Below are positions 4,702 through 30,754 of a DNA stretch of 34,497 nucleotides, in pieces. How positions within the stretch are numbered: the first letter of the stretch is position 1; each line of letters opens with the position of its first letter. Made by a program: the position numbers and the translations under genes. The stretch comes from a virus. The DNA lies in IMG/VR virus record IMGVR_UViG_3300044824_000332, positions 1-34,497 of that record; one strand, written 5' to 3'. Under the pieces are notes generated by a model that saw nothing but the letters and a program-made list of their open reading frames with translations, was not told where the DNA came from and made no database searches.

Positions 4702-5870
4702 CAGCTGTGCTCCGTGCTGAACGCCGTCGTCAGCGAGATCATCGTACAGTTCGCCCACTGCCCGGCCGTAAGCGTGGTCAGCACCGGCGTCGTGAGCGTC
4801 ACGCCATAGACACCCGCGACAGACAGCGCCGCAATTATCTGGCTCGGCACGATGTCGCGCTGAATCTTGGCTGCGAGCTCGAGCGCCAACTCCTGCGCGG
4901 CGGTTGTCGCCGCGGCGATCGTCGCGGTCGGATCCGCATCCGAGTAGAGCGTCACGGTCGCGGTGATCTGGTAGTCCACCTCAGTCACCGCCAGCGCGTT
5001 GACGGTGTCGGTGAGCGGACGCACCGTGTCGGCGTTCAGCGCCGCCGACACTTTCGCAAGCAGCGCGGAGTTCGCGACTCCCGCACTATTTGGCGCCGCC
5101 GCCGGCTGCACTGTAATCGGTCCGGTCAGCACGTACGCGTTCACCGATCCGGGGGAAGGACTTACAATTTGCGCGTCGATGATCGACGGATCGGCGCCGA
5201 TCGAAAAAAACCGGTACGCTCCGATCGGACCCGCGACGCTGAACTGATTTGGCGCAGCCTGAATGCGCGTGCGCAGATGATCGTCCGTTTCCGGGGCGGA
5301 TCCACCCGTGGTCGTGCTCGTATTGGTCACGCTCGCGATCAAGGCATTCGGATTGAGCTGGACGTTGACCTGCCCCGCCAGGTATCCATTCGCAGCCGCC
5401 CCTGGAGTCGTCGCCGCGGCAGCAACACTGCCGGTGGTTGCGCCGGCCGCAATGGTGATTGTTGCGCTGGTCGCGAAAGCAAACTGCCCGTCGTTCGTGC
5501 CGGCCAGCGTTCCCGCGGCAATCGTGAACGGCACCGTCAGCGCGTTGGCGAGCGTGAATTGGAGCGTCGTCACCGCGGGTTGCGCCGCCAGTCGAGTGAC
5601 GCCGAGCAGTTGACCGAGATAATCGAGCATCGGGAACGACGCGAAGGCGAGCAGATTCTGCTCGGCCGCATACTGGATCGCATTGCGCACCAGCGATTCG
5701 CGGTACGCATACAGATTGATCAACAGGCGCTCGACCTGCGCCGGATAAAGCGTTCGGTCCGCGGCTGCCTCGAACTCGGCAATCATGTCGGCAAGGATTA
5801 GGTTTGGATCGAGCCCGTCCGCATCGTTGACGAACACCGGCGGCGGCAGCGATGGAACTCCTGCACTCAT
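4701..5870 (-). CDS. J: Baseplate assembly protein J
   Basis: Product is 389 aa, a baseplate J-like protein (PF04865 type), the wedge subunit that circles the hub in contractile tails. Recognisable parts are the helical N-terminus with YPAQVERLLINLYAYRESL, the segment LLAFASFPMLDYLGQLLGVTR around residues 73-94, a beta-rich middle domain, and ETDDHLRTRIQAAPNQFSVAGP, the conserved J-family stretch. The ATG at 5870 has AAGGA seven bases upstream; an adjacent TTG at 5873 is less likely. The stop overlaps the start of I by one base. There is a 36-bp gap after W. Confidence 0.92.
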   Translation of the reverse strand: MSAGVPSLPPPVFVNDADGLDPNLILADMIAEFEAAADRTLYPAQVERLLINLYAYRESLVRNAIQYAAEQNLLAFASFPMLDYLGQLLGVTRLAAQPAVTTLQFTLANALTVPFTIAAGTLAGTNDGQFAFATSATITIAAGATTGSVAAAATTPGAAANGYLAGQVNVQLNPNALIASVTNTSTTTGGSAPETDDHLRTRIQAAPNQFSVAGPIGAYRFFSIGADPSIIDAQIVSPSPGSVNAYVLTGPITVQPAAAPNSAGVANSALLAKVSAALNADTVRPLTDTVNALAVTEVDYQITATVTLYSDADPTATIAAATTAAQELALELAAKIQRDIVPSQIIAALSVAGVYGVTLTTPVLTTLTAGQWANCTMISLTTAFSTEHS

Positions 5871-5906
5871 CAACTCATCCTTTCATCGCCGTCGGCGCGG
5901 CCCGGA

Positions 5907-8031: not shown

Positions 8032-8273
8032 TACGTTCCCGCCGCTTGAGACATTTTCCAGGGCGGCAAGTCGGCCGTGACCACCGCGCTCTTCTCCAGG
8101 ATCGGCACGGCGATCGATATCCCGGCATCGAACACCGGCTCAATCGGTACGTTCGGATTAGCCATTATGATCGGAGAATAGTCAGTCGGATCGCCATAGT
8201 ATCGCCAGGCTAACAGATCCCAGCGTTCACCGGCCCTCGTAATGTGAAGTATGAACTGTCCAGACGGCGTCAT
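8031..8273 (-). CDS. X: Tail protein X (LysM-like)
   Basis: Product is 80 aa. The sequence ITRAGERWDLLAWRYYGDPT followed by IIMANPNV is the P2 gpX family signature, a LysM-like fold of about 65-75 residues. It binds in the tail hub region between U and D. Its ATG overlaps the U stop codon (ATGA) and its stop overlaps the D start. No Shine-Dalgarno is needed if translation is coupled. Confidence 0.9.
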   Translation of the reverse strand: MTPSGQFILHITRAGERWDLLAWRYYGDPTDYSPIIMANPNVPIEPVFDAGISIAVPILEKSAVVTADLPPWKMSQAAGT

Positions 8274-8857
8274 CGCGCGGCGCTCCTCACGATAACCGCG
8301 GCGGGCACGTCGTCCGCTTCAAGATTCGGACCGCTTGTGCCTGTCGGGGACGGAATACTCAGCAACGCCGACACGCCTGGCGTGGATCCGTCCGAACCAC
8401 TGCCGGCGGTTCCGCTCGACGCCGTCGTGATTCCTAGCGGAGAAAATGTCGCAACAGGCAGCGCGCTGGAAACAAGTTGCGGATCAGCTATCCATTCTTT
8501 GAGTGCGAGTGCGACCCTGATCGCCAGCAATCCGCCGAGATCCGACATCTGCATCGATTTCACTTTAATCGATTCGATCACAAAGAGACCGAGGTACGTT
8601 CCGACGCCGAAGATCAGCGGCAGCGCGAGATGCTGCGCGGCCGTCGCGCGCAATAGCGCCAGCTGCACGGCAGGATTCGTGAACGACGAGTGCCACATCA
8701 GCTCGAAATTCAGCCGCTGGAGATCGTCGCCGACCCATTGCAGCCGCGGCTTGCTTTCAATCACCCGCTGCTCGCCGAAATCGTAAGCCCCCGCCGATTC
8801 GTAGCCTTCCGGAGAGCCAACCACCTCGAACAGAATGTCGCCCAATGCTGCGAACAA
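8270..8857 (-). CDS. U: Tail protein U (P2 gpU-like)
   Basis: Product is 195 aa. The first 125 residues fit the P2 gpU family: MFAALGDILFEVVGSP, KPRLQWVGDDLQRLNFEL, a G-x-G-x-Y-L-G-x-F-V-I-E-S segment at about 83-95, and ALALKEW near 116-122. The remaining 70 residues are a Ser/Gly/Thr/Pro-rich tail beyond the usual gpU length. The start is TTG (8857) preceded by GAGGAG at 7-bp spacing, and the GAGGAG overlaps the stop of the upstream gene. Assignment is by family motif plus gene order T-U-X-D. Confidence 0.87.
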   Translation of the reverse strand: MFAALGDILFEVVGSPEGYESAGAYDFGEQRVIESKPRLQWVGDDLQRLNFELMWHSSFTNPAVQLALLRATAAQHLALPLIFGVGTYLGLFVIESIKVKSMQMSDLGGLLAIRVALALKEWIADPQLVSSALPVATFSPLGITTASSGTAGSGSDGSTPGVSALLSIPSPTGTSGPNLEADDVPAAVIVRSAAR

Positions 8858-8868
8858 CTAATCGCTCC

Positions 8869-9975
8869 TCAGAACTCCGCGCGCTCGCGCCGCGCTGATT
8901 CTCGCTTCAATTGATTGAACAGTTCCTCGCGATGCGCCCGCAGTGCGCCAATCGCATCACGCTCTACATTGCCGCCCGCCGCCGGCGCGTTGATCACGAC
9001 CGTCGGCGACGAGTTGATAGTGATCCCCGTGCGCACGCCGCTGTTATTCGGACCACGAGCGTTGCCCGATGGTTCCGCGAACTCGCGCTGAGAGAGATTT
9101 GCGGGCGGAATCACCGCGCGGATCGATGAAGCCATGCGATCCCTCGGGAGCAAGCCTGTCCCGGCTAACGCCGCTCGTTCTGCTTCCAGACTTCCTCGCG
9201 ATCGACTCGAACCTCGCCCTGCATCTGATCTCGGCGGCGATTCCGCATTCGCGACAACCATCCCCTGAGCAACTTCGTTCGCGCGGTGCGCCTGCTCGGC
9301 GAAATCGCTCGAGCTCTTCAATCCGGATTCTGTCGAGCGTCGGCCCGCATTGGAAATCGCCCAGGCTGCGCTTCCCGATTCAACTGAGCGTTCAACCCGC
9401 GACACAGCATCCGTCGCGAGAGACAATTCCCGAATCCCCCGGGACAAGCGGCCGCCAGCGTCGACCCTTGCCCTCGTGCGATGCCACGCATTCGCGTGAC
9501 CGCCACGCCTTCCTCGTGACTCTCCATCGATCGCGCCATCCGAGTCTTTCAGCCGCGGCATCGAAGTTGCCGCCTCGTTGCCCCTGATGCTGTCACTTAC
9601 TCGCGCAGTCGCATTCAGCACCCTGGCGCCCGCGGCGAACGTCCGAATTAATTGCGCAGCGCTCGCAGTCTTTCTCCAACCGTTTCTTCCATTTCGACCT
9701 GGATCGTCGTCTGCTCGGCTCTGAGAGCCGTCACCACGAGTCTCTCCGTTCGCGAGAGATCCTGCCTCCGGACGATGATCGTATTTCAGAAAGGAAGCAT
9801 GCGCGGGGAGCTGCCAGCGATGATCTGCGGTTATTCCGATGCCAGCAGTCGCCCGCGCGATCCGGACGCTCTCTCCTGCGAAGCCGGCCATCCGGTCAAG
9901 ATTGCTGAGCGCGCGCGCCGACTTCGATCCGCTAATCTTCGCCGGCGTGTCGATTGTTTTGGATTGCCTCGCCAT
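8869..9975 (-). CDS. Short tape-measure-like tail protein (possible remnant)
   Basis: Product is 368 aa in the slot where P2- and Mu-type tails carry the tape measure. The last 55 residues (TINSSPTVVINAPAAGGN then ALRAHREELFNQLKRESARR) match the usual C-terminal pattern of tape measures of this type: a beta strand with SPT and a charged helix ending R-R-x-R-x-x-F. The rest is unlike a normal tape measure. It is 2-3 times shorter, lacks hydrophobic segments, and is Arg/Ser/Gly-rich. Around 9660-9790 a second minus-strand frame reads as a good amphipathic helix (RTERLVVTALRAEQTTIQVE) for about 45 codons. That could mean a frameshift or decay of a once longer gene. The start has no clear Shine-Dalgarno. 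Confidence 0.5.
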   Translation of the reverse strand: MARQSKTIDTPAKISGSKSARALSNLDRMAGFAGESVRIARATAGIGITADHRWQLPAHASFLKYDHRPEAGSLANGETRGDGSQSRADDDPGRNGRNGWRKTASAAQLIRTFAAGARVLNATARVSDSIRGNEAATSMPRLKDSDGAIDGESRGRRGGHANAWHRTRARVDAGGRLSRGIRELSLATDAVSRVERSVESGSAAWAISNAGRRSTESGLKSSSDFAEQAHRANEVAQGMVVANAESPPRSDAGRGSSRSRGSLEAERAALAGTGLLPRDRMASSIRAVIPPANLSQREFAEPSGNARGPNNSGVRTGITINSSPTVVINAPAAGGNVERDAIGALRAHREELFNQLKRESARRERAEF

Positions 9976-10013: not shown

Positions 10014-10316
10014 CTAGGCTCGCGCGACGTTACGTTCGAACGGGCGCCGTTGAGAGGTCGCGGCCTCCACTCGCAACGGACGTCCTACGAGTTCCTTCCC
10101 GTTCATCGCCCGCAGCGCGACCGCAGCGTCCTCCTCATTCGTCATCTCGACAAATCCGAACCCGCGCGAGCGCCCGTCGAAACGGTCACGCACGATCTCG
10201 GCTCGTTCCACTCCGCCAATCCCGGCAAAGGCTTCACGCAAATCGCCATCGCCCAACGAAAAACTCAGATTCCCTACAAATAGTCTCACGCCCATCGTCT
10301 CACCATCTCGCGTCAT
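10014..10316 (-). CDS. RRM-type RNA-binding protein inserted in tail operon
   Basis: Product is 100 aa and is a single RNA recognition motif. RNP2 is LFVGNL (residues 12-17) and RNP1 is RGFGFVEM (51-58); both have the aromatic residues used for base stacking. The beta-alpha-beta spacing and the AVALRAMNGKELVGRPLRV close are canonical. Bacterial RRM proteins (cyanobacterial Rbp type and relatives) are single-domain, around 80-110 aa, and often linked to cold response, but their targets are mostly unknown. It sits between the tail chaperone E' and the tape-measure gene, where known contractile phages have nothing. Start may be 10316 or the internal ATG at 10295. The last 15 residues are basic. 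Confidence 0.9.
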   Translation of the reverse strand: MTRDGETMGVRLFVGNLSFSLGDGDLREAFAGIGGVERAEIVRDRFDGRSRGFGFVEMTNEEDAAVALRAMNGKELVGRPLRVEAATSQRRPFERNVARA

Positions 10317-10362
10317 TAGTTACTTCACGCATTGCGCTATAGTCACTGTAATTACTACTCAT
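10300..10362 (-). CDS. Possible 20-aa peptide overlapping E' stop
   Basis: An ATG overlaps the stop of the E' frame as ATGA, in the way most genes here are coupled. It opens a 20-codon frame (MSSNYSDYSAMREV...) that ends at TGA just inside the RRM gene. It is in the same frame as the tape-measure-like gene 325 bp downstream, so it may be the stranded original start of that gene, or a coupling leader for the RRM gene. Nothing else supports expression. Confidence 0.2.
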   Translation of the reverse strand: MSSNYSDYSAMREVTNDARW

Positions 10363-10819
10363 GATTCGCCCCCTCCGCCGCGTTCGACGCGCATCCGTTC
10401 ATAATCCGTCATCGCGTCGAGCCAGTACGACAGCTCCACAAAGTCCATCCCGCTCAGCTCCCGGACGGAGAATCCGAACTGGACGAGGCCTGCGAAGCAC
10501 GCTGCGGAGGGCGGTCGAAATTTCGGTCGAGCACCTCGTCCTGTAGCGCCATCACGTCCGCAAGATCCATCTCGAGAACGTCCTCGTACACGATCTTGCG
10601 CCCGTCCACGCGCGTCAGCTCCGCGATTAGCGCAAATATCACCGCGCTCGAGTCGCCACCCGCCGCTGCCCGTTGCGCCCGCATCAAGTCCCGTCCATGA
10701 CCTTTGCGCACCTCGGCGCGCGAGCCCGAAGGTAAATCGATGCTCTGGGTATCTTCTTCCTCTTTCGTTTCCGGGCCGCCGATACGCACTCCATTCACCG
10801 TAATTTCATCGGTCTTCAT
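10359..10819 (-). CDS. Tail assembly chaperone E-E' frameshift product
   Basis: A -1 ribosomal frameshift at 10517-10523 would join the first 101 residues of E to 52 codons of a second frame, giving 153 aa. The second frame has no start of its own but reads as a good protein: FSVRELSGMDFVELSYWLDA then MTDYERMR, which resembles the Met-x-x-x-E-L-x-x-W segments of P2 E' and related GpE proteins. It ends at TGA 10359-10361. In many tailed phages this G/GT-type fusion binds the tape measure and recruits tube subunits. The evidence here is the heptamer plus the sensible downstream frame. Actual shifting is not shown. Confidence 0.72.
10454..10819 (-). CDS. E: Tail assembly chaperone E (Mu gp41 / P2 E type)
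   Basis: Product is 121 aa from the unshifted frame. It has an N-terminal beta-rich domain (EITVNGVRI, IDLPSGSRAEVRKGHGRD), then helices (AVIFALIAELTRVDGRKIVYED, LADVMALQDEV), as in Mu gp41-type tail chaperones. The Ser-rich end (SSSSDSPSGS) after residue 105 is what results when the ribosome does not shift. The gene follows the tail tube gene, the standard location. A longer frameshifted form is described separately. Confidence 0.8.
   Translation of the reverse strand: MKTDEITVNGVRIGGPETKEEEDTQSIDLPSGSRAEVRKGHGRDLMRAQRAAAGGDSSAVIFALIAELTRVDGRKIVYEDVLEMDLADVMALQDEVLDRNFDRPPQRASQASSSSDSPSGS
10517..10523 (-). other. Slippery heptamer A AAT TTC for -1 frameshift
   Basis: On the minus strand the sequence reads A AAT TTC in the zero frame of gene E, an exact X-XXY-YYZ heptamer. 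Slipping back one base re-pairs AAT/TTC tRNAs on AAA/TTT. The -1 frame is then open for 52 codons to 10359 while the zero frame stops at 10454. The -1 frame is also open upstream. No obvious stimulatory stem-loop was identified by eye. Confidence 0.75.
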
Positions 10820-10860: not shown

Positions 10861-11379
10861 TCAGCCGCCGAGATTTGAGCGGAAAGTACTCAGTTGGTCG
10901 ACACCGCCGACTACGTAGATATTGGCGAATACGTCGTACAAGTATATTTGGACTCCCGCCACGTATAACTCACAGTGATAGATACTTATCACCGACGTGG
11001 TCTCGACCATTTTATGCTGGCGGAAAGTGGGACTTCCGGCATCCTTGAAGATTCCCGTCATCAGGTACACCACCGGGAGCTGCGCGCTTCGGCCCTGGCT
11101 GGTGTACTGCTCCAGATTTCCCCGCGCCTGGAACGAATGTGTTTGGAACGGACTGGTTGACATCGTAAGCGTACTCGCGTCGAACGACGTCCACTTGATT
11201 TTCGACTCGAGCTTTTCCACGCCCGCCCACAGTTCAGCCGTTCCGGCCATCCCCAGGCCCTTGTAGTCAATCATCTTGTGCTTGGGATTGGCGATCTCGA
11301 TCTCTTCGGCCCGGCCCAGCAGTCCGACGCCGTCGATGTATATATTTGCGTTAGTCAGTGAGTTGATCTGGATATTCAT
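10861..11379 (-). CDS. FII: Major tail tube protein (P2 FII)
   Basis: Product is 172 aa, the usual length of P2 FII-type tube proteins. Family features are the N-terminal INSLTNANIYIDGVGLLGRA, EIANPKHKMIDYKGLGMAGT near residues 28-47, and LESKIKWTSFD. Subunits stack as hexameric rings to form the inner tube through which DNA or the spike passes. AGGGG lies six bases before the ATG. It directly follows the sheath gene. Confidence 0.93.
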   Translation of the reverse strand: MNIQINSLTNANIYIDGVGLLGRAEEIEIANPKHKMIDYKGLGMAGTAELWAGVEKLESKIKWTSFDASTLTMSTSPFQTHSFQARGNLEQYTSQGRSAQLPVVYLMTGIFKDAGSPTFRQHKMVETTSVISIYHCELYVAGVQIYLYDVFANIYVVGGVDQLSTFRSNLGG

Positions 11380-11404: not shown

Positions 11405-12946
11405 TTACGACGTCGCTCCCGCCGCTGCAGTTATCGGACTCGTCTGTCCGAGTTGCTGCAGCAGCGTCACGTCTATGAATGCCTCAAAGGTGATTCTTTC
11501 CGCGGGTGGCGGGGGCATTACGTCGATGTCAAAGACCAGTTGCCCGGCGGCGACCTGCGTGGCAGGATTTTCCGCCGGGTCGAAGCTTGCCGCGCCGGCT
11601 ACTAGTGCGCCGCGCTGGATAAGCGATCTGATGAATGCGTTGGCGCTGGCGAGGATCGCGTCGATCAGCGCGTTCGAAATCGGCTGGTCGATAAACTGGA
11701 GCATCGCCAGTTCCAGCGATTCCTCGATTACGTCCATCGTGCGCCGTACCGAGATAAAATTGTCCGGCGCGGTTGATGCCGGGTACGCCGCGCTCCGATT
11801 GCCCCACACCCGAAGTCCGGTGCCGAATGCGTTGAACACCGTCACGATTCCAGCCGCATTCAGATTATTGGTGTCGGACGACGCGTCGAGAATAGACGCG
11901 TAGAGCTGAACGTCGGGCCCGAGCATTCCATCGACCTGCGTGTTGGATGGCGACCACCAGTAACCCTGCGCCAGGTCTTTGGCCGCGATCGCTCCGGCCA
12001 CCCACTGTGAATATGGACCCACCGAGTTCGCGTTGAATTGCGACGTCACCGGCGTCCCTGAAGTGCTGAGCGTGACGCCAGTCGGCACGATTCCCGTGTC
12101 GTAGAACGTCTCTTGCGGATAGCAGAGAACTGTTCGGTTGCTCGACGTTGCGAAGGCATTGCCCACGACTCCGCGATTGGCTATCGCGGCCGCTACTGCG
12201 GTCGAAGGCGGCGAATCGACGAGCGCCGTCGCGCGAATCTTGATCGCCATGGCGTCGATTGCAGCCGCAACGGAGGCGTCCTGCGAGTAGCCCGGCGCAA
12301 TCAGTATCTTGGGAAAGAATCCCATCGTCCCGTAGGTCGTCTGAAATGCCTGCATCCCCGTGTACACGCCGCCCGTAAATTCCCCGATCACGTCAGCGTC
12401 CGCCACCTTCGACGGATCCGCGTAGTTGAATGCGACCAACACGCTGGCGCCGGCGGTAATATGTCCTCCCGATCCAGTCGGCACGATCGTAATCGCACCA
12501 TTCACCGCGTCGAGCGTATAGTCAGTGCCCGCGACATAGGTAGTACCGGCAGGATTACTGGTGACTACCACGTTGGACACGCCCATGTGGCCGAGATTGA
12601 TAGCTCCCTGCGCGTTGAAGGTGAATGCCGTCGCAGCTATCGCCGTGAAATGTATGCTGGGATTGAACACGTTGACGACGATGGCCTGTCCCGCTCCCTG
12701 CGCCTGGATCGCCGCGAGCGCATACGGAATCGAGTATCCGCGAACTACCCGTCCGAAGTTTGCCGCGTCGCGCGCTGACGAGACCAACGCAGGCGTGTTG
12801 GGCGGCGCCGCGACCGACGGCGATTCCACCGCCCACGACGGCGCCGTCCCGACCAGTCCAATCACCGCCGACTTGACGACCGTGACCGGGACCGGCCCAT
12901 TAGGTACTTCGATTACCTCAACTCCGTGTAAGAAACTCGCTGGCAT
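11405..12946 (-). CDS. FI: Contractile tail sheath protein (P2 FI)
   Basis: Product is 513 aa. The N-terminus (FLHGVEVIEVPNGPVPVTVV then SAVIGLVGTAP) and the C-terminal region with VRRTMDVIEESLELAMLQFI and AGQLVFDIDVMPPPPAERIT are diagnostic of the phage tail sheath family. The middle (about 110-180, AQGAINLGHMGVSN, AGTDYTLDAVNGAITIV) is an inserted surface beta domain that varies between phages and makes this protein longer than the P2 sheath. AGGTGA lies just before the ATG. Sheath contraction drives tube injection. Confidence 0.94.
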   Translation of the reverse strand: MPASFLHGVEVIEVPNGPVPVTVVKSAVIGLVGTAPSWAVESPSVAAPPNTPALVSSARDAANFGRVVRGYSIPYALAAIQAQGAGQAIVVNVFNPSIHFTAIAATAFTFNAQGAINLGHMGVSNVVVTSNPAGTTYVAGTDYTLDAVNGAITIVPTGSGGHITAGASVLVAFNYADPSKVADADVIGEFTGGVYTGMQAFQTTYGTMGFFPKILIAPGYSQDASVAAAIDAMAIKIRATALVDSPPSTAVAAAIANRGVVGNAFATSSNRTVLCYPQETFYDTGIVPTGVTLSTSGTPVTSQFNANSVGPYSQWVAGAIAAKDLAQGYWWSPSNTQVDGMLGPDVQLYASILDASSDTNNLNAAGIVTVFNAFGTGLRVWGNRSAAYPASTAPDNFISVRRTMDVIEESLELAMLQFIDQPISNALIDAILASANAFIRSLIQRGALVAGAASFDPAENPATQVAAGQLVFDIDVMPPPPAERITFEAFIDVTLLQQLGQTSPITAAAGATS

Positions 12947-17125: not shown

Positions 17126-17142
17126 GGCTGAACAGTTCAGCC
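17126..17142. promoter_or_regulatory. Perfect palindrome GGCTGAACAGTTCAGCC, candidate operator
   Basis: Eight-base arms around a single central A lie 38 bp upstream of the protease gene (minus) and 116 bp upstream of the ABC gene start (plus), in the only intergenic gap between them. The symmetric GAAC-N-GTTC core suggests a homodimeric regulator. No second exact copy was seen next to the S24 repressor gene. Confidence 0.4.
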
Positions 17143-17257
17143 CTGAACTTTCGTGGCTATCGGGTAAATTATCGCTACTAATGGTAGATGCCCGCGCGTG
17201 TCGCCGCTTCCACCTGCCTCGCATTCACCCGCGCCGGCCTGTAAAACTTGCCCCACC

Positions 17258-18070
17258 ATGAAGTCCCATCCGGCCGTGATCGAGGTGACCGCGCTGCGCG
17301 TCGAGCGCGAAACCGTCATCCTCGAATCCATCGATTGGCGCGTCGAACGCGGCGAGCATTGGGCGATTCTCGGCGCCAACGGCTCCGGCAAAACTTCCCT
17401 GCTCCGCGCGCTGACCGGATACCTGCCACCGACCGCCGGAGAAATTCGCGTGCTCGGCGAGACTTACGGGCGCTTTGACTGGCGCGAGCTGAGGACCCGG
17501 ATCGGACTGGTCAGTTCAAGCGTGCATCAGATGATGGAACACAACGACGGCGAGACGGCTCTCAAAGCCATCATCAGCGGACGCTACGCGCAAATTGGCT
17601 ACTGGGGCGAGATCCGCCCCGACGACCGCCGCGCCGCCACCGCAATCCTGCGCCGCATCGAGGCCCGCGCGCTGCGCGATCGTCCGTGGCGATTTCTTTC
17701 CCAGGGCGAACGCCAGCGCGTCCTCATTGGCCGGGCCCTGATGGCCTCACCGCGGCTCATGATCCTCGACGAGCCGTGCGCCGGACTCGACCCCGTCGCC
17801 CGCGAGCACTTCCTGCAGTTCCTGCGCCGACTCGCCCGCACCCGCGCCACGCCCACGATGCTCCTCGTCACCCATCATGTCGAGGAGATCGTCGCGATCT
17901 TCTCGCACGTACTCGTGCTCAAGTCGGGTCGCGTGCTCGCCGCCGGACCGCGCGGGCGCGTGCTCACTTCCGCAACACTGTCCAGCGCGTTCCACGCGCC
18001 GGTGCGCCTCACTCGTGAGCGCGGCAGATACTCACTCTCGGTGCGCCCGCATTCCGGAATAGTAATCTGA
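17258..18070 (+). CDS. ABC transporter ATP-binding protein, YlmA/ModF-like
   Basis: Product is 270 aa from ATG 17258. All nucleotide-binding motifs are present: Walker A GANGSGKTS, signature LSQGERQRVLIGRAL, Walker B RLMILDEP followed by CAGLDPVAREHF, and an H-loop His in LLVTHHVEEI. The combination EHWAILG, LGETYGRFDWRELR, SGRYAQIGYWGE and THHVEEIVAIFSH is typical of the YlmA/ModF branch of orphan ABC ATPases. No permease or binding protein gene is adjacent, so the transported substrate is unknown and it may not be a transporter. A GUG/AUG start further upstream (17198) adds 20 unlikely residues. It is transcribed against the phage operon and belongs to the cargo block. Confidence 0.87.
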   Translation: MKSHPAVIEVTALRVERETVILESIDWRVERGEHWAILGANGSGKTSLLRALTGYLPPTAGEIRVLGETYGRFDWRELRTRIGLVSSSVHQMMEHNDGETALKAIISGRYAQIGYWGEIRPDDRRAATAILRRIEARALRDRPWRFLSQGERQRVLIGRALMASPRLMILDEPCAGLDPVAREHFLQFLRRLARTRATPTMLLVTHHVEEIVAIFSHVLVLKSGRVLAAGPRGRVLTSATLSSAFHAPVRLTRERGRYSLSVRPHSGIVI

Positions 18071-18109
18071 AAACGGTCATCGCCAACTAGCTAATCGGCA
18101 AATTCAAAA

Positions 18110-18131
18110 CGGCGGGCCGTTTGGCTCGCCG
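18110..18131. terminator. Hairpin between convergent genes
   Basis: CGGCGGGCC, a GTTT loop, and GGCTCGCCG form a 9-bp stem with one G-T pair, in the 98-bp gap between the convergent ABC and NHL genes. A-rich bases precede it (AAAA), which would give a U-run for the minus-strand transcript, so it could end the NHL message. Support is structural only. Confidence 0.45.
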
Positions 18132-18168
18132 CTTCCGTTGCGCGCGCTGTCAAGTGCGACCCGTCCGT

Positions 18169-21100
18169 CTATTTCTTTACCTTCGGCGCTTTGCCGCTCC
18201 CGCACAGCCGGATCTGCTGCGGTCCTCCCCATTCGTCGTCGTTGATGATCAACTCTCCGCAATGTGCCGTAGTATCCGTTGGGTTGAAGATCACCGAAAC
18301 TTTACAGCTCTTTCCCGGCGCCAACGATTTAATGCATTGCCTGGTGACCGCAAATGGCGCGACGGCCGACTCACCGGTGATCGATACGGTAATCTTGGAT
18401 TTCTTGGAGCTGCCGTTCTTGATCGTCACCATCGTGGGTTTGCTGACCGAATTGACCTTGGTCGATTTGCCGAACTTCACGGATTTGGGTGAAATCTTCA
18501 GCTTGGCGGCGACAGGTATCGGCGTAGCGGATGGCGTCGCAGTTGCAGTTGCAGTTGCCGTCGCCGTCGCAGTTGCGGTCGCAGTCGCGGTCATCGTCGC
18601 CGTCGCGGTCGGCGAAGGTGCGCCGGTAGCGCTTGCGGTCGGCGTCGGAGTCGCGGTCGGCGAAGGTGTGCCGCTAGCGCTTGCGGTCGGCGTCGGAGTC
18701 GCCGTGGGCGTCGCGATTATCCCGTCGTAGACCAACGACCGATTGTTGCTCGTGTCCGCCACGTAAAGATCAATATTCGAATCGACCGCCACCGCGGCCG
18801 GCGAGCACAAGCTGTCCGCGCCAAGTCCGTTCAAGTCGCCCGGAGCAATTCCTCGATTGCATCCCGAGGTCGTGAAATTGCCGCCGTCGCCCTGTCCGAT
18901 CACCATCGCCGCCGCGCTATCCGGGCCGAATGGCGCATTGTACTCGAGTACGCGATCGTTGTTCGCGTCGGCCACCCACAGGTTGCCGAGCACGTCGAGC
19001 ATCAGTCCTGCCGGTGCGCATAATGTCGATGCGCCCGGCGCCGACGACGCGCCTTGATTGCATCCCGACGCCGTGAAGTCGCCCGCCTGACCGAACACCC
19101 GCGTCGCATTCTGCGTGCCCTCAAGCGGCGCGTCGATTTCCATCACCCGGTTGTTGCTCGAGTCCGCAATAAACAGATCCCCCGACCTATCCAGCGCCAC
19201 GCCGCCCGGATTGCACATCCCGTGATTGCTTGGCGACGGATCCGGCCCCACGCCGTCCGCGCATTGCCTGTCGGAGAAATCAGACACCGACCCCTGTCCG
19301 TAGGACCGATTCGCAAGCGCATCCGAAGCGACCGGCGGATTGCCCGCTTTCGCGAACTCGAGCACGCGATTGTTCCCCGTGTCCGCTATGTAGATATTGC
19401 CCGCGCCATCGAGCGCCACCGCCGCCGGATTGCACAAGGTCGTCGCCCTCGCGCCGTCGAGATTGCAGTTCCTGGTTGTGAATGCCCCGCCCTGTCCGTA
19501 AACAAAATCCGCCGACCCGTCGCCCGCGCCCGGCTCGCCGCTGGCCGCGTTGAACGGCGTGTTGTACACCAGCACGCGATTGTTGCCCGAATCCGCCACG
19601 TACAGATTTCCCTTCTGATCGACCGCCATGCGCGCCGGACCGCACAGGCTGTCCGGGCCGAGTCCGGCCACGTCGCCTCCCGTCACGCCGTTATTGCACT
19701 TGTACGAGAAAAGGTCCGGCTGTCCCAAGGCGATATCCGCCGGCTGCGCACTGACATACGACGACACGTCTTTCCATCCGAGCACGCGATTGTTCACGCT
19801 ATCGGCGACATATAGATGGCGATACGGCGGGTCCGACGACGCGTCCACTGCGATTCCGCCCGGCGCGGCCTCGCCTGTCGCATCGACGTAGTTTGGCGCG
19901 TTGTGCGACAGATCGATCTGCCCGCCCACGCCGTTGGCCACTTCGTTGCCAGGCGAACTGCCCTCGTTGAACTCCAGCACCCGATTGTTCGCTTGGTCGG
20001 CAACGTAGAGATTATTGACCGCATCGATCGCCAGCCCCATCGGGAATTGCAGCGTCCCGGCGTTTGGATTCTGCGCCCCGGGCCCTATCATCAGGTTGAG
20101 CAGGTCCGCCGTGGCCAGCAGGACCGGCTGCGTATACTCGTACACCTGGTTATGAGGTTCCGATGAAACGTAAAAATTTCCGTTCGAATCGGCCGCGACC
20201 CCCGACGGTTGTGCCAGGTTGTTTCCCTCGAAAACCAGGTCTGCAGTAGCATTATTGGTCTGCCGATAGCCGAACGGGCCGTTGTATTCCAGCGCCCGAT
20301 TGTTCTTCGTGTCGGCAACGTAGAGATTGTCGCCGCCATCGACCGCAATCCCCACCCCGAAAAACGGCGCCGTGCACAGCGTCGTGAGAGTCGCGTCCCC
20401 GCCCTGGTTGCAAGCTCCGCTGACCAGGTTGGGCTGTCCAATCGCCACGTCCGCCGTCGCGTCGCCGAAATTCCCCGGCGGCCCGCTCACTTTGGTCATC
20501 GGAATCGGAGAGAAAAACACCAGCGCGCGATTATTACCCACGTCGGCAACGAATAGATTGTTGCTCGCATCGACCGCCACGCCCTGCGGACTATTTAGAT
20601 TGTTGGCGCTAAGCCCACTCGCATTCGTGATAAAGCTCCCGGCCTGCCCGAATACCGCGAAAGCTGCGAAATTGCTCGTTTGATTTGTACTGGAAAGCGC
20701 CGCGAACGGATCTGCAAATACCAACACCCGGTTGTTTTGCGTATCGCCGACGTACACGTTATGCGATACGTCAACCGCGACTCCGATCGGCCGGCACAGG
20801 CTCGTCGCGTCCGGCGCTGGCGCATTCTGATTGCATCCCGATGAATTGAAATCAGGCTGCCCAATCACCAGGTCTGCCGCGCCGCCGGACACAAACGCCG
20901 GGATGCTCTTCCATCCCATTACGCGATTGTTCTGCGCGTCCGCCACCAGCACGTGGCCGGCAGACCGGTCGATCGCCACGCCCGCTGGCGCGTCCATTCC
21001 GATCGGATCGACAAAGTTCACCGCGGTCTTGATGAAATCGATTTGCCCCAGCACACGATCCGCAATCAGCGCGCCAACTCCCGCGCGCAAAACCCCGCCC

Positions 21101-21174
21101 ATTGTCGCCAGCACAATTGTGGCCGCAATAGCCGCCGGCAATACGATCCCGCCACTCCGCAAACTAGGGCGCAC
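18169..21174 (-). CDS. Secreted NHL-repeat protein with C-terminal Ig-like (choice-of-anchor D) domain
   Basis: Product is 1001 aa. A signal-like segment at about residues 10-33 is followed by about 12 NHL beta-propeller repeats, each built around Y-V-A-D-x-x-N-N-R-V-L-x-Y/F (for example YVADSGNNRVLVY) and preceded by G-V-A-V-D. Twelve blades suggest two six-bladed propellers. A low-complexity TPTPTASASGTPSP linker covers about 815-889, and the last 110 residues are an Ig-like domain (ISPKSVKFGKSTKVNSVSKP, then SVIFNPTD) with four Cys. The start is GTG with AAGGAG upstream. The architecture is common in surface proteins of soil Binatota and Deltaproteobacteria-like lineages. No enzyme role is visible; it is a cargo gene, not a phage structural gene. 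Confidence 0.88.
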   Translation of the reverse strand: MRPSLRSGGIVLPAAIAATIVLATMGGVLRAGVGALIADRVLGQIDFIKTAVNFVDPIGMDAPAGVAIDRSAGHVLVADAQNNRVMGWKSIPAFVSGGAADLVIGQPDFNSSGCNQNAPAPDATSLCRPIGVAVDVSHNVYVGDTQNNRVLVFADPFAALSSTNQTSNFAAFAVFGQAGSFITNASGLSANNLNSPQGVAVDASNNLFVADVGNNRALVFFSPIPMTKVSGPPGNFGDATADVAIGQPNLVSGACNQGGDATLTTLCTAPFFGVGIAVDGGDNLYVADTKNNRALEYNGPFGYRQTNNATADLVFEGNNLAQPSGVAADSNGNFYVSSEPHNQVYEYTQPVLLATADLLNLMIGPGAQNPNAGTLQFPMGLAIDAVNNLYVADQANNRVLEFNEGSSPGNEVANGVGGQIDLSHNAPNYVDATGEAAPGGIAVDASSDPPYRHLYVADSVNNRVLGWKDVSSYVSAQPADIALGQPDLFSYKCNNGVTGGDVAGLGPDSLCGPARMAVDQKGNLYVADSGNNRVLVYNTPFNAASGEPGAGDGSADFVYGQGGAFTTRNCNLDGARATTLCNPAAVALDGAGNIYIADTGNNRVLEFAKAGNPPVASDALANRSYGQGSVSDFSDRQCADGVGPDPSPSNHGMCNPGGVALDRSGDLFIADSSNNRVMEIDAPLEGTQNATRVFGQAGDFTASGCNQGASSAPGASTLCAPAGLMLDVLGNLWVADANNDRVLEYNAPFGPDSAAAMVIGQGDGGNFTTSGCNRGIAPGDLNGLGADSLCSPAAVAVDSNIDLYVADTSNNRSLVYDGIIATPTATPTPTASASGTPSPTATPTPTASATGAPSPTATATMTATATATATATATATATATPSATPIPVAAKLKISPKSVKFGKSTKVNSVSKPTMVTIKNGSSKKSKITVSITGESAVAPFAVTRQCIKSLAPGKSCKVSVIFNPTDTTAHCGELIINDDEWGGPQQIRLCGSGKAPKVKK
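18605..18700. repeat. Two tandem 48-bp repeats in the NHL protein linker
   Basis: Two copies (18605-18652 and 18653-18700) differ at two bases. They encode the Thr/Pro/Ser/Ala linker. Just to the left (about 18537-18604) a shorter run of GTCGC/GTTGC hexamer-like units codes the TATATA stretch. Such repeats can change length by slippage. Confidence 0.75.
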
Positions 21175-21889
21175 GCGCTCTCCTTCCGACAGCCCTGACC
21201 TGCTCCTTCCGTCTATGCTTGGTGATGAGGATGCTAGACAGACGGCGGGGTCTGGCTGCGTGTTAACTGCGCGTTAACTGCGTGTTGAGGCCAAGCATAA
21301 TGCCACTCCATGCTTCGTCAACACTATCAAAGTTCCCCAAAGCACCTATTTGTTAATCTTCCCGTCCGATCCATTGCCCCAGTTACGATGTTGCGTTCCG
21401 CGCAACTTTTCTTTCTTGTGTCATCCCGAGTTCCGCCGCTTCTTTTTTGTGTCATTCTAGAGCGCTTCTGGATGACTCCGCTTCCACCAGCCGAAGCCCT
21501 GAGCGCAGCCGAAGGGGAAGAATCCCGCTTCCTTCCTGGTTGCCGCGCCCCTGAGGCGAGGTGTCACAGACACTCGGCCGCGCCCCTGGTGCGGCTGAGG
21601 ATGCAGATTTCACGGGAGAGATTAGGTGAGGGTTCTGCGACGCCCCAGGAATACCCGCATGCTCACTTTTTGTGTCATCCCGAGCGTAGCCGAGGGACCC
21701 CCGGTTCTTTGGTCTGCCCCTCCTTCTTATAGGCCCCACTAATCTCCTAGTCTCGCGAGTAGCTTGTCGCTCAAAGAATCACTGTCCTTCCGCCAGTTCA
21801 AGATTGAGCTGACGCTGCAACCTGAAATTTGACTTCCGCTTGCCACGAGACATAGATTTCGGAGGAACTCCTTATCGACGAGAGGACAG
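21175..21889. other. 715-bp intergenic region with repeats, no gene seen
   Basis: This gap separates divergent NHL and nuclease genes, so both promoters should lie here. It contains three 11-bp direct repeats (21256-21288) and several copies of a GTGTCATCCCGAG-type interspersed repeat at about 21417, 21449 and 21671. GGTGAGGGTTCTG (21624 on) resembles the GGTGAGGGT core of the repeats around the DUF559 gene. No convincing reading frame was found. Confidence 0.6.
21256..21288. repeat. Three 11-bp direct repeats upstream of the NHL gene
   Basis: CTGCGTGTTAA, CTGCGCGTTAA and CTGCGTGTTGA follow one another without gaps, about 85-115 bp before the NHL start codon. An 11-bp period places each unit on the same helix face, as in iterated regulator sites. 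No regulator is known. Confidence 0.5.
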
Positions 21890-23518
21890 TTGAGCCGAAG
21901 AAGAAGCTTGATCAGTTACTATGCGGCGAGGCAACGTGCCGAGGAGCAAGCCGCCAGAGCTCGCGTACGTGCACAAGCGCAAGCGATTCGCGCTCATCAA
22001 CAGTTTGTGCGACAACAACAACACGCGAGACTCGCAGATGCCAAGGAACAGCTCCGACTGTTCCACGAGGCTCAGGAAGAGGAAGTTTCTTCACGCAACC
22101 GCGAACTCGCGGAATCAATCGGACAAATTACCAGCGTACTGCAGAACGCTCTCACTTCGCCCCACCGATTGAATTTCGAGAAATTGAAATCTCATCCGGA
22201 GTTCGAGGTTTTCGATCCTGGAGCGCTCGGGAAGGCCGAAGACCCGCCGCGTGCCACCGATTACCTTCCGCCGCCGCCTGGATTTTTCGCCGGGCTCATA
22301 CCGGGAGCGAAAGCACGCCATCAACTGGCGGTCCGAGCCGCCCGCGCGCGGTTCGACGCAGAGGCGGTCGCTCATGCGAAACGTGAAGAGTCGCGCCAGG
22401 TTGCGCTAGAAACCGAGCGAACCCGCTATCAGGCAGAAGTCAAGGATCAGGTCGAGAAAGCTCAACATCAACATGATCAGATCGACGCGCTCAAGAATGG
22501 TTACGAGGCCGGCGACAAGGACGCCATCAGACATTACTGCGAAGCGGTCCTTTCCTCGGAAACATATCCAGACGGCTGGCCCGATGTTTTCAAGTTGGCG
22601 TACGTCCCGGAATCAAAGCAGCTAGTGGTCGAGTATGACTTTCCTGGCTTCGAAATCATTCCAGTTGCGGCAGCGCACAAATATGCGAGGGCAAAAAAGG
22701 AGATCGTCACTGCGCAGCGTCCCGATACCGAACGAAGACGCCTGTATTCTGTGGTGATTGCGGAAACCACGCTCACAGTGATTCATGCGTTGTTCGATGC
22801 GGACTATGCCGGCCATGTTGAGACCATCGTTTTCAACGGACACGTCGACGCGATTGATCAAGCTACCGGACACGCGGTCCACCCGTGTCTGGTTACGCTC
22901 AGAACGACCAAGGGAGTTTTCCAGCAAATTGACCTCTCGCGAGTTGATCCGGAGGCCTGCCTCAAGCGTCTAAACGCCTCGGTCTCGAAGAAGCCCACCG
23001 AGCTCGCTCCGGTGAGGCCCGTCCTCGAATTCAACATGGTCGATCCTCGATTCGTCGAGGAACAGGACATCATTTCGGGCTTGGACAACCGAACGAACCT
23101 GATGGACCTGAACCCACGGGAATTTGAATCGCTCATCACAAACCTGTTTGAAAAGATGGGACTGGAAACTCGCCAAACCAGACCTTCACGCGATGGCGGG
23201 GTCGATTGCGTTGCATACGATCCGCGTCCCATTTTCGGCGGGAAAGTAGTGATTCAAGCCAAGCGATACAAGAACACAGTTGGCGTCAGCGCAGTGCGGG
23301 ATTTGTTCGGAACCGTTCAGAATGAAGGTGCATCAAAGGGCATCTTGGTGACCACCAGCGGCTTCGGCCGGGCGTCATTCGAATTCGCTGATCACAAGCC
23401 ATTGGAGCTGCTCGACGGGGGCAACCTGCTCTATCTACTCGCGGAACACGCCGGCATTGAAGCAAAAATCGAAGTTCCCGACGATTGGAAGGATCCCAGC
23501 CCAGTATTGAGCGAGTGA
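21890..23518 (+). CDS. Mrr-type restriction endonuclease with N-terminal coiled coil
   Basis: Product is 542 aa. The C-terminal Mrr catalytic domain (about 415-520) shows NPREFESLITNLFEKMGL, then SRDGGVDCVAYD with the catalytic Asp, and VVIQAKRYK, the Q-x-K form of the PD-(D/E)xK site. VRDLFGTVQNEGASKGILVT follows. Residues 10-75 and 150-205 are Gln/Ala/Arg/Glu-rich coiled coils. The start is TTG (21890) because no ATG occurs until near the catalytic domain and MSRRRSL matches the usual beginning of this nuclease family, which is common in Actinobacteria. Mrr nucleases cut modified DNA. It is a stand-alone gene with no methylase beside it, so a defence role is plausible but inferred. Confidence 0.86.
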   Translation: MSRRRSLISYYAARQRAEEQAARARVRAQAQAIRAHQQFVRQQQHARLADAKEQLRLFHEAQEEEVSSRNRELAESIGQITSVLQNALTSPHRLNFEKLKSHPEFEVFDPGALGKAEDPPRATDYLPPPPGFFAGLIPGAKARHQLAVRAARARFDAEAVAHAKREESRQVALETERTRYQAEVKDQVEKAQHQHDQIDALKNGYEAGDKDAIRHYCEAVLSSETYPDGWPDVFKLAYVPESKQLVVEYDFPGFEIIPVAAAHKYARAKKEIVTAQRPDTERRRLYSVVIAETTLTVIHALFDADYAGHVETIVFNGHVDAIDQATGHAVHPCLVTLRTTKGVFQQIDLSRVDPEACLKRLNASVSKKPTELAPVRPVLEFNMVDPRFVEEQDIISGLDNRTNLMDLNPREFESLITNLFEKMGLETRQTRPSRDGGVDCVAYDPRPIFGGKVVIQAKRYKNTVGVSAVRDLFGTVQNEGASKGILVTTSGFGRASFEFADHKPLELLDGGNLLYLLAEHAGIEAKIEVPDDWKDPSPVLSE

Positions 23519-23565
23519 GGTTAAATAAGAAGCGTCCTTAGGGCATCTTCAACTGGCGCGATTTA

Positions 23566-23736
23566 CTAGCAGGGTGTTGAAAAATTCGGTTCAGCCGCCG
23601 TTTTCGATTTCAGGCTCTTCAACACCCTGCGTAAAAGATGGCTTCTTACCTACAACATCTCCCCCAAAGGCCGTCTTTGGGGGAGACAAGAGAGAGGGAG
23701 CAGGCGTTGAAAATTACTTCTTCAACAGCCTGCTAG
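23566..23736. mobile_element. MITE-like element with CTAG ends
   Basis: The 171-bp segment begins CTAGCAGGGTGTTGAA and ends TTCAACAGCCTGCTAG, a terminal inverted repeat with one mismatch in 16 and CTAG at each edge. A third copy of the motif (TTCAACACCCTGC, 23618-23630) pairs perfectly with the left end. Inside is a 12-bp perfect stem at 23658-23686 (TCTCCCCCAAAG / CTTTGGGGGAGA). It contains no coding frame, so it would need a transposase elsewhere. It follows the nuclease gene by 47 bp and could also end its transcript. Confidence 0.6.
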
Positions 23737-23842
23737 GGGTCACCCCTGCGGTCACCCCTGCTTTTGTAACCGGCCCTTCAAGACTGCTAATGTTCTCCTC
23801 GAAAACCGCCTAGCCATCGGTACCGGAAAGGAGACCGCGACC

Positions 23843-24505
23843 ATGAGCATCAAAGAGCGAATCGGGTTTGTGACGCTGACTCTCGCCGCCGCGCTCGTCG
23901 GAGGTGCCGTGTCTGGCCATATCTTTGCCGCTCGCGCCGTTGACGCCGCCGCAGCCCCCAAGATGATCACCGCGCAGAAGTTCATGCTCGTCGACGCCAA
24001 GGGCAATACTCGCGGCGAGTTCAACGTCACCAGCAGAGGCGTCGCACAGCTCGGCGTCTTCGATGGCACCGGCACCTTGCGCGCCGGGCTCGGCGTCGGC
24101 GCCGATGGGGCCCCGGCTCTCGGCATCTTCGGCCACGACGGCAAGCCGCGAATCGAAGTCGGACTCGCCAACAGCGTCGCGCGCATCGTGCTCTACAATG
24201 CGAACGCACTGCCGCAAGCCACCTTCGGCGTTGCTCCCGACGGCCAGTCCGGTCTGGACCTCTTGGACAAGAACGGCATTCCGCGCGCCTCGATCGTCCT
24301 GGCGGCCAACGGCTCTCCCACCTTGCGCCTGGCCGATCAGCACCGCGCGCGCGTCGGTCTCGACGTGACCCCCGACGGATTGCCCGGCCTCGCACTGCTT
24401 GGCGCCGACGGCAAGACCCGCGCCTCGGTCACTCTCAATGCTGACGGCGCCGGCGCGCTCACCTTGTTCGACGCCAATGGAAACGTGAACAGCTCCGTCC
24501 CCTGA
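23843..24505 (+). CDS. Membrane-anchored dG-repeat protein, function unknown
   Basis: Product is 220 aa. A hydrophobic N-terminal segment (about 8-31, FVTLTLAAALVGGAVSG) is followed by repeated 20-25-residue beta units of the form L-x-V-x-D-x-x-G-x-x-R-A-x-L-x-V-x-x-D-G-x-P. Examples are VFDGTGTLRAGLGVGADGAP and LLGADGKTRASVTLNADGAG. The units predict a regular beta structure outside the cytoplasmic membrane. AAGGAG lies eight bases before the ATG. Related repeat proteins occur in several soil phyla without a known role. It precedes a lipoprotein gene by 65 bp, so they may share a transcript. Confidence 0.75.
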   Translation: MSIKERIGFVTLTLAAALVGGAVSGHIFAARAVDAAAAPKMITAQKFMLVDAKGNTRGEFNVTSRGVAQLGVFDGTGTLRAGLGVGADGAPALGIFGHDGKPRIEVGLANSVARIVLYNANALPQATFGVAPDGQSGLDLLDKNGIPRASIVLAANGSPTLRLADQHRARVGLDVTPDGLPGLALLGADGKTRASVTLNADGAGALTLFDANGNVNSSVP

Positions 24506-24570
24506 TTGACTCTTCACCAGGGGTGGCCCGCGATGGCCACCCCGCTTTCTTCGCTGCACCCAGGGAACCA

Positions 24571-25053
24571 ATGCGCCAACACTCTTCAACTTCCGTCGCT
24601 GTCGTCTTCTTGATCGCCACGCTTTCGGCTGCGCTCTTCGGATGCGGCTCGATCCAAACGCCTCCGCCGGCTCCCGAGCAGCAGGCCGAGCAGATTGAAC
24701 CGATGCTCTCCGCGGCCGGCTTCAGGATGCTCCCCGCCGACACTCCCGAGCGCCAAAAGCAACTCGAGTCGTTGCTTCCGCTCCAGGTTCAATACTACCT
24801 CGGCAAGACCGGCAACCTGCACTATTGGATGGCCGATCCGTACTATTGCAAATGTATGTACATCGGCACCGAGGAGGCTTATCAGCAGTACGAGAAGTTG
24901 AAACTCAACGAACAGTTCCAGGCAAAGGAAGGCGAGATCTCCCGGCAAACCATCGAAGCCCAGCAGATGGAGGAAATGGACATGCAGGAAGAGATGTTCA
25001 ATCCATACGGCATGGGCCTCGTCGGTCCGATGGGCCCTGCGATGTACTGGTGA
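24571..25053 (+). CDS. Small lipoprotein, function unknown
   Basis: Product is 160 aa from ATG 24571, with AGGGA four bases upstream. An in-frame upstream ATG at 24523 adds residues that would bury the signal sequence. The N-terminus ends in a lipobox, ALFGC, with the lipidated Cys at 25. The body carries MADPYYCKCMYIGTEEAYQQ and a Gln/Glu/Met-rich end (MEEMDMQEEMF). The two nearby Cys could bind metal. It shares direction with the dG-repeat gene. A cargo gene; not recognised as phage. Confidence 0.72.
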   Translation: MRQHSSTSVAVVFLIATLSAALFGCGSIQTPPPAPEQQAEQIEPMLSAAGFRMLPADTPERQKQLESLLPLQVQYYLGKTGNLHYWMADPYYCKCMYIGTEEAYQQYEKLKLNEQFQAKEGEISRQTIEAQQMEEMDMQEEMFNPYGMGLVGPMGPAMYW

Positions 25054-26675: not shown

Positions 26676-28199
26676 TCAGAATCCACGCACGCGCGCGCGG
26701 GCGAAATCCTCTTCCGCCGGCGGCGCGCCGAATGGATCGATCCGCCGGTCGAAGTCGTCCCGCTTGCCTGACCCGAACGCCGGGATGTACGCGATCTGCC
26801 CGGGGTCGGCGCGCGACGCGAAGAACGCCAGCGCCGCCGCCATCGCCGAGTCGCCGTGCCGTCCCTTGCCGTCGGACCCGGCGCGCCGCTCCGCGACCTT
26901 GGCCACGCCTTGCTCGAGCACGATCGCGCGATGGTCCGCGAGCACGTCCGCATCCTTGGGAATCTCGATCGTGGCGTCCTCGAACGCCGCCTTGTAGCGC
27001 GGCATATTTTCGCGGTACCACGACTCCGACAGCATCACCTGCACGATTCGGGCGCCGTAGCGCTGCGCCGCGGTCTCGGCCAGGTACTGTCCGTTGCCGC
27101 GCGCGTCCATCGCGCCCGCGGCGAATCGCGGCAGCCGGTCGGCGATATAGAAAAGCACCTGCTCCTGGTTTCGAAACGGGATATTGCGCAGCTCGACCAC
27201 GAACGGCGTCCGCCGCTTCAGGTCGGGCGCGATCTGCAGCGGCCAGATCACCGTCAAGTCGCCCGAACGCCCGAAGTCCTCGCCGAAAAAACTCGCCAGC
27301 GACCCATCCATCGCCGCGATTACGGGCGCCAGGTTGTCCTCGCACCACGCCTGCGTCTCCGAGTAGCGCTCCGCTTCCGGGCGGCCGGCAAATTCCGCCG
27401 GCATTTCCCAGCGCAGTATCGGGATACCGGCCTTCATCCGCGCCTCGATCAACACCGAGCTCAGGTACGCGCCCGACGACGCGCGCGGGATGCAGAACAG
27501 TTCTTCGCCGACGTTGTCGCCGTAGTAATCGATAATCTGCTGCCGCCATTCGCGCTGCCTTTCCTCGGTCCATTCGGTTTCGCTCTGTTCGCAGATTTTT
27601 CTGTATAGTCCGTCGGCTAGTGCGTCGTCGAAAGTCGTGCGATGAAGTGAGTATGGACGCCGGCCCGCGCGAATCTCACTGATTAGCTCGTTGAAGGGAT
27701 TGTTGGCGCCGTTGTGAGTTGAAATTATGCGCACCAGTCCGCCCCACATGGTAAACGCGAGCGCCGCTTTCAGCAGCCCGGCCAGGTCTTCATGGAACGC
27801 CGCCTCGTCTATGACCGCGCAGCCGTCCTTGCCGCGCAGATTCGACGGGCGCGACGACAGCGCCACGATTTTGTGCCCCGACGCGAAGCGGATTCTGTAC
27901 GCCAGGATGTCGGTGCGCTCGTCGGCCAGCACGATTTCCTCGATCGCCTGCGCCGCCCGATTGAAGCGCCGCGCCCATCGCGCCGCCGCCTCGACGAACT
28001 CGAGCGCCATGTCCTTGTTGTAGCCGATATACCATCCGTCGATTCCGGCCCGCCCGCCGGTGGCCGCGCCGAGCGCGCGATCGGCAGCCTCGGTCCAAGT
28101 AATGCCTATTCGCCGCGACTTCTCGCTGACCTTGACTTGCGATTGATCGGCCAGCCATCGCCGCTGATATGGAAGTAGTATTGAGAGTGGTTCATTCAT
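26676..28199 (-). CDS. Large terminase subunit (Mu gp28-like)
   Basis: Product is 507 aa. The ATPase half shows KSRRIGITW near residues 27-35 (Walker A-like), a GHKIVALSSRPSNLRGKDG segment, and VIDEAAFHED as the Walker B-type Asp-Glu pair. The nuclease half has FGEDFGRSGDLTVIWP with a catalytic-type Asp and MDARGNGQYLAE. This enzyme cuts and pumps DNA into the head. The first 43 codons are repeated almost exactly at 28701-28835 in a truncated copy. GGAG is 13 bases before the ATG, a long spacing. Confidence 0.93.
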   Translation of the reverse strand: MNEPLSILLPYQRRWLADQSQVKVSEKSRRIGITWTEAADRALGAATGGRAGIDGWYIGYNKDMALEFVEAAARWARRFNRAAQAIEEIVLADERTDILAYRIRFASGHKIVALSSRPSNLRGKDGCAVIDEAAFHEDLAGLLKAALAFTMWGGLVRIISTHNGANNPFNELISEIRAGRRPYSLHRTTFDDALADGLYRKICEQSETEWTEERQREWRQQIIDYYGDNVGEELFCIPRASSGAYLSSVLIEARMKAGIPILRWEMPAEFAGRPEAERYSETQAWCEDNLAPVIAAMDGSLASFFGEDFGRSGDLTVIWPLQIAPDLKRRTPFVVELRNIPFRNQEQVLFYIADRLPRFAAGAMDARGNGQYLAETAAQRYGARIVQVMLSESWYRENMPRYKAAFEDATIEIPKDADVLADHRAIVLEQGVAKVAERRAGSDGKGRHGDSAMAAALAFFASRADPGQIAYIPAFGSGKRDDFDRRIDPFGAPPAEEDFARARVRGF

Positions 28200-28260: not shown

Positions 28261-28537
28261 CTGTGCGTAACCGGAGGTTGGTGCTGGAGCGATACGCGCT
28301 GGCACCCTCTTTTTTTGTGTCATTCTGAGCGCAGCGAAGAAACCCGAATCTTTCTCGGCGCAAAACACTTCGACTTCACTGAGGGCATGCGAAGCCGAGC
28401 TGCTCATATGCAGTTACGCAAAGCTCTCCTGACAGGGAGAGGCAAAGAAAAGGATCCGGGGTCCCTCGACTCCGCAGACTCCGCTCGGGATGACACGAGA
28501 GAGAAGGCGCGGAAGGTAAGTAAGTGTGCTGGCATCG
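28261..28537. other. Spacer with host-type interspersed repeats
   Basis: No gene was found in this stretch. It carries GTGTCATTCTGAGCGCAGCG (28317 on) and, inverted, GGGTCCCTCGACT...GGGATGACACGAG (28459-28498). These resemble repeats in the cargo region at 21417 and 21671, so the same genomic repeat family has entered both places. Confidence 0.6.
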
Positions 28538-28700
28538 CTATATCTCCATCAACACCGCTTTGATCTGATCGACGGCGTCCTTGCTCAGGCCCTTGGTCCG
28601 CGCTTCCTCGACCTTCTTCCCGACCGCCGCCTTCCCTGCGCGCGCGTGCTCGACCCATCTGCGATGCTCGGTTTCCGCCTTCGCCAGTCCCGACACGCTG
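28538..28700 (-). pseudogene. 3' remnant of a second small terminase gene
   Basis: The minus strand codes the last ~54 residues of a gp27-like protein in frame to a TAG stop, ending KGLSKDAVDQIKAVLMEI. The intact gene at 29534-30145 ends KGLSKDAADQIKAVLMEI. Upstream of this the two differ more (VSGLAKAETEHRRW versus VSGLVKAESEHQKW), so the remnant comes from a related but distinct phage, not a fresh duplication. At 28700/28701 it abuts the terminase 5' remnant out of frame. Confidence 0.8.
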
Positions 28701-30753: not shown

Positions 30754-30754
30754 C

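Follow-up and report, generated by a model that had tools for sequence, protein, structure and literature searches.

An RRM gene conserved within the tail operon of an uncultured Mu-like phage family

Among the tail genes of a Mu-like contractile phage, next to the tail chaperone, lies a gene for a canonical single RRM protein. It occupies this same place in dozens of related contigs, its tail-encoded homologs have a single origin, it has been inherited together with the surrounding tail genes, and it is under strong selection with its RNA-binding face intact. The best reading of these observations is that the product is a phage-dedicated single-stranded-RNA-binding protein, which would act late in infection. 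In eukaryotes, no RNA-binding proteins are more common than those with an RRM; in bacteria, the roles of such proteins are poorly understood. To our knowledge, the RRM family has no known part in phage morphogenesis. A literature search, in itself limited evidence, found no phage tail RRM. The presence of an RRM in a tail operon suggests that phage assembly is subject to a level of RNA-based control so far unstudied.

The RRM gene and the tail operon around it

The sequence analyzed here (the window) comprises 34,497 bases and is a virus record from IMG/VR. Its minus strand carries a Mu-like late gene set comprising the Mu portal, the Mu I protease, the Mu gpT capsid protein, gp37, sheath, tube, chaperone, GpU, gpX, gpD, gpV, gpW, gpJ and gpI; Gp27 and a Mor activator are also encoded. 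Matches to tube, sheath, chaperone, GpU and gpT bear out the original prediction of a P2/Mu-like tail operon in which the RRM gene sits between E′ and the tape measure. The relevant part of this operon is laid out as follows.

11405..12946, minus strand: tail sheath (Phage_sheath_1, phrog_23)
10861..11379, minus strand: tail tube, FII-like (Phage_tube, E 1.5e-39)
10454..10819, minus strand: tail assembly chaperone E (TAC; Phage_TAC_7 at E 9e-5, just under the Pfam cut-off; phrog_21320 at E 7e-24)
10300..10362, minus strand: possible leader ORF of 20 codons, read directly; it overlaps the E′ stop (ATGA) and ends 4 nt before the RRM ATG
10014..10295, minus strand: RRM gene with corrected start, 93 aa (Pfam RRM_1)
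10266..10283, minus strand: RNP2 motif LFVGNL, with an aromatic F or Y at position 13 in all 49 aligned tail RRMs that cover the site
10143..10166, minus strand: RNP1 motif RGFGFVEM; F53 (Y in a single case) and F55 are retained in every one of the 49 aligned tail RRMs covering the site
8869..9975, minus strand: short putative tape measure gene, 368 aa, with a C-terminal ITINSSPTVVIN...RRERAEF motif common to relatives
8270..8857, minus strand: GpU tail protein (Phage_P2_GpU, E 1.1e-22)

By profile and fold, the product is a canonical RNP1/RNP2 RRM_1 protein, and the claim of a complete single RRM therefore stands. Its match to Pfam RRM_1 (PF00076) scores 77.7 bits against a cut-off of 20.7 (E 6e-22) and spans the entire profile (1–70 of 70). 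An AlphaFold2 model computed with 23 relatives has the order beta-alpha-beta-beta-alpha-beta (pLDDT 76.7), and the best PDB matches to this model in Foldseek are all RRMs, at 1e-7. The ORF was originally listed as 10014–10316 on the minus strand, between the chaperone and the short tape measure ORF; the gene and its strand hold, the start does not. Residues 1–7 are unconserved, with Ile in most relatives where the window has Met1, while Met8, which follows an SD-like GGTGAG, is conserved, so that the ATG at 10295 is the most likely start. A chance ORF was ruled out, as the RRM is conserved in dozens of contigs. The PHROGs collection held no family for the window's RRM at E 0.001, and at 0.01 gave nothing for two more distant tail RRMs, another viral RRM or a cellular RRM. 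The possible leader ORF is retained in many, not all, relatives.

The neighboring 368-aa ORF, originally read as a shortened tape measure, had no matches in Pfam or PHROGs; its probable identity rests on its position and on the C-terminal motif common to relatives. A tie between its shortness and the RRM was considered and rejected as not specific, for the tape measures of RRM-lacking relatives are also ~350–375 aa long.

Conservation in place, descent and selection

The RRM gene is a fixed member of this operon across most of the relatives sampled. An RRM scan of contigs yielded 36 at 84–96% identity with identical neighbors as far as each contig extends, and a wider RRM scan added relatives at 50–73% identity with the gene in the same position. 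Contigs found through RRM queries are by construction selected for RRM presence, hence the importance of a scan with the tube protein, unselected for RRM, in which the same position was seen. The contigs are metagenomic fragments, and loci that were two views of one contig were counted once. The search for tail-flanked RRM genes that was proposed with the original prediction returned at least 65 distinct IMG/VR contigs with an RRM beside at least one flank of the same tail genes, and the counterproposal that no relative shares the location failed. Of the 57 distinct contigs in which chaperone and gpU both occur, 51 have the RRM; it is missing from the distant outgroups L134 and L137 and from four members of one subclade, L117, L121, L123 and L125. 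By profile search it is also absent from the related L115, L116, L120 and L122, where gpU was not reached. In the tube tree, this RRM-lacking L115–L125 subclade is nested in the RRM-bearing group, with L046 and L113 retaining the gene (the L113 fork is weakly supported), and the simplest reading is therefore that the subclade lost its RRM. It follows that the RRM is not strictly essential; the loss subclade shows its function to be helpful rather than indispensable, or else replaceable.

Several relatives depart from the common layout. At the corresponding junction, RRM-lacking relatives carry an antisense small membrane ORF (L116, 5167–5340; L120; L122; L125), of which L122 has two copies, at 5386–5556 and 5739–5894. 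In L038, L039, L041–L044 and L112, gpU follows almost directly after the RRM with no space for a tape measure gene, and none was recognized elsewhere in the stretches read, which for L112 and L041 are whole contigs. In L040, E/E′ and the tape measure gene (here 414 aa) have moved from their usual position after the tube to one upstream of gp37, at 223–2553, and the RRM is still found between tube and gpU; this rearrangement is seen in a single contig and may be a misassembly.

The family is so far one of uncultured phages. None of the isolate-phage records holds a tail-clade RRM, their sole RRM match being a 43%-identical protein of Microcystis phage MaAM05, and 34 such records hold a related tube at below 60% identity. 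A search for the host found no close tube relative in 399 genomes of one Acidobacteriota class, in 396 of that phylum or, in a scan run without a positive control, in 95 genomes of the phylum to which Rokubacteria belong.

Among the 147 RRMs of a phylogenetic tree, the 48 from tail operons cluster together, apart from cellular RRMs (support 100/95), and other viral RRMs are placed elsewhere. The nearest cellular rows are from Candidatus Rokuibacteriota, with support of 96/96 when the wider set is taken and 94/77 with the closer one, in a tree of few columns and unsettled bootstrap of which only the single tail grouping is relied upon. RRM distances closely track those of tube, sheath, E, gpU, gpD and gp37 (Mantel r 0.90–0.94, with tube at 0.94) and also those of gpX (0.73); within the main clade alone, r is 0.36–0.72. 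Median dN/dS is 0.067 for the RRM, compared to 0.039 for the tube, 0.077 for gpT, 0.105 for the sheath and 0.51 for the tape measure. The aromatic residues F/Y13, F/Y53 and F55 are kept across ~50% protein divergence of the tail RRMs. The single grouping, the distance tracking, the low dN/dS and the kept RNP residues together indicate that the RRM has long belonged to this phage family and is maintained by selection, which appears to act most clearly on RNA binding. The gene was probably captured once, long ago, then vertically inherited in an uncultured Mu-like phage family, almost unchanged since. Tail RRMs also differ systematically from cellular ones in having R38 for S, R43 for T and E84 for N, substitutions that are consistent with a target of their own.

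This history leaves next to no probability for the recent capture of a host gene, one of the explanations first offered. Bacterial RRM genes are indeed common, but the tail RRMs are a single old clade to which none of the best 80 of at least 577 confirmed bacterial genome matches belongs, the closest of those 80 being 61% identical over a partial match. The GC3 of the RRM, 0.66, is inside the range of the neighboring genes, and conservation in distant relatives refutes a recent arrival.

Function, rival explanations and the E/E′ frameshift site

The proposed mechanism starts from a late gene passed on vertically within a family of contractile Mu-like phages. The tail operon would yield the RRM protein during late expression, and the beta-sheet of the single RRM would bind short single-stranded RNA in the cell. 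Its main target would be the phage's own late mRNA, perhaps with the RRM's own message among the targets, and binding would protect the transcript or set its translation. We give slightly less than an even chance to the central claim, that the RRM protein, by binding the late mRNA of the phage, alters how this transcript is translated or how long it lasts. The location of the gene on the same strand as the operon, 4 nt past the possible leader ORF, counts for it; that certain RRMs bind proteins, not RNA, counts against it. Tail assembly can moreover proceed without the RRM, because the L115–L125 subclade lacks one at this place. Autoregulation is without sequence support because the RRM leader has no motif common to different clades; the TGACTA/TAACTAAT repeats considered for this role are confined to the main clade and absent from its sister clades. 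The bolder proposal that a eukaryote-style RRM serves as a dedicated late gene controlling, via RNA, the amount of each tail protein is, on our assessment, somewhat doubtful. A comparable phage protein is the translational repressor RegA of phage T4, which binds phage mRNA and tunes its translation, as the tail RRM is proposed to do; RegA is of a different family and acts on replication genes.

The original prediction also raised the possibility that the RRM tunes the E/E′ frameshift just upstream, whose elements are listed here.

10517..10523, minus strand: slippery heptamer A AAT TTC for the −1 frameshift from E to E′, in frame and invariant in 27 aligned relatives
10359..10517, minus strand: E′ extension in the −1 frame, open until the TGA at 10361–10359, with a conserved SYWLDAM segment
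10500..10511, minus strand: helix 5′ arm, 5 nt past the slippery site
10371..10382, minus strand: helix 3′ arm (CGCGGCGGAGGG), 117 nt away at the end of E′, finishing in GGAGGG

In the tail chaperone genes, the shift is −1 in phage lambda and −2 in phage Mu (PMC5009743). Among the relatives, the site reads A AAT TTC or A AAT TTT; L041 (5819) and L044 (4603) have GAATTTT, not AAATTTT, with the E′ frame still intact. Long-range pairing joins CCCTCCGC with GCGGAGGG, about 110–117 nt downstream, and the minimum-energy fold of the window includes this helix (z −4.2). It recurs in RRM-bearing relatives, L038 included, and in the RRM-lacking L116, L123 and L125 (12–13 contiguous pairs), and was not found in the distant RRM-bearing L047–L060 and L126–L130. 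Covariation is limited by a nearly invariant core octamer; pairing is better between arms of the same locus than after partners are exchanged (p 0.0014, by contiguous pairs and uncorrected for kinship). Pair counts exclude the multiple alignment A4, in which the 3′ arms are misplaced. The helix, present with and without an RRM, may act at long range to stimulate frameshifting in phage tail genes.

That the RRM regulates this frameshift is very unlikely. The slippery site does lie only 228 nt upstream of the RRM start and is followed by the strongly folded helix, but both are kept in the RRM-lacking subclade, distant RRM bearers have no recognized helix, and in L040 the relocated E/E′ has left the RRM by the tube. 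The distribution of the helix does not match that of the RRM, which speaks against the RRM as a frameshift cofactor. We regard as similarly improbable a tail-assembly adapter that connects proteins and no longer binds RNA: the gene adjoins those of the chaperone and tape measure, and stays between tube and gpU in L040, but the RNA-contacting aromatics, needless for a pure adapter, are kept across ~50% divergence.

The main rival, though itself unlikely, is a host-directed role in which the protein would attach to the small ribosomal subunit (30S) or to host mRNAs, shifting translation toward the phage. Among single-stretch matches of a PDB profile search, the chloroplast ribosome-associated RRM cS22 is near the top (5x8p, 5mmj; E about 1e-28), and the nearest cellular kin in the RRM tree are bacterial RRM proteins. 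However, many RRMs likewise resemble cS22, a eukaryotic nuclear-encoded protein and not a phage one, and a late operon is not where early-acting takeover genes are expected. Less probable again is a moron-like accessory gene, settled at the E′/tape-measure junction, that has no role in tail making but benefits an infected cell or lysogen, for instance during cold stress. The antisense membrane ORF of the RRM-lacking subclade demonstrates that the spot accepts other genes, and cyanobacterial Rbp1 is required for cold adaptability (PMC9333190). Against this, the RRM is on the operon strand, shows no signs of a separate cassette, and is conserved at the level of the tube and capsid genes.

Binding of the phage's own late transcript remains the preferred reading, and known single-RRM proteins provide points of comparison. 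Single-domain bacterial RRMs of the Rbp type (Synechocystis Rbp1/Rbp2, PMC9333190) are alike in having one RRM of ~80 residues and a short C-terminal region, and aligned cellular relatives share RNP1 RGFGFVEM. The tail RRM, in contrast, is phage-encoded, resides in a tail operon, forms a separate clade, reads VEAATS where the cellular proteins have VNEA(R/K)P, and scores 85.3 bits with NCBIfam NF058537 (Rbp_regulator), under the curated cut-off of 100. An RRM-like core is also found in phage proteins of VIPR/RAMP systems (PMC13142463). Vipr, however, is a RAMP with a G-loop and thumb that uses repeat RNAs, unlike the canonical RNP1/RNP2 RRM of the tail protein, and kinship was rejected because the window holds no repeat RNA, with no run of at least five GGYNN units (VIPR-type tandem repeats). 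A compact, well-understood operon with RRM-lacking sister phages offers a clean setting for the function of a single prokaryotic RRM, and for asking whether phages have means other than the E/E′ frameshift to adjust the stoichiometry of their late genes.

Other features of the window

The protease and portal genes are separated by ~8 kb of cargo (17137–25053), which encodes an NHL-repeat/beta-propeller protein of 1001 aa and, in the opposite orientation, a restriction endonuclease of the Mrr type. The ORF at 28404–28835 and the one at 26676–28199, in the terminase position, have identical first 45 residues, which suggests a possible partial gene duplication. A 38-bp unit is present in three perfect tandem copies at 30754–30868.
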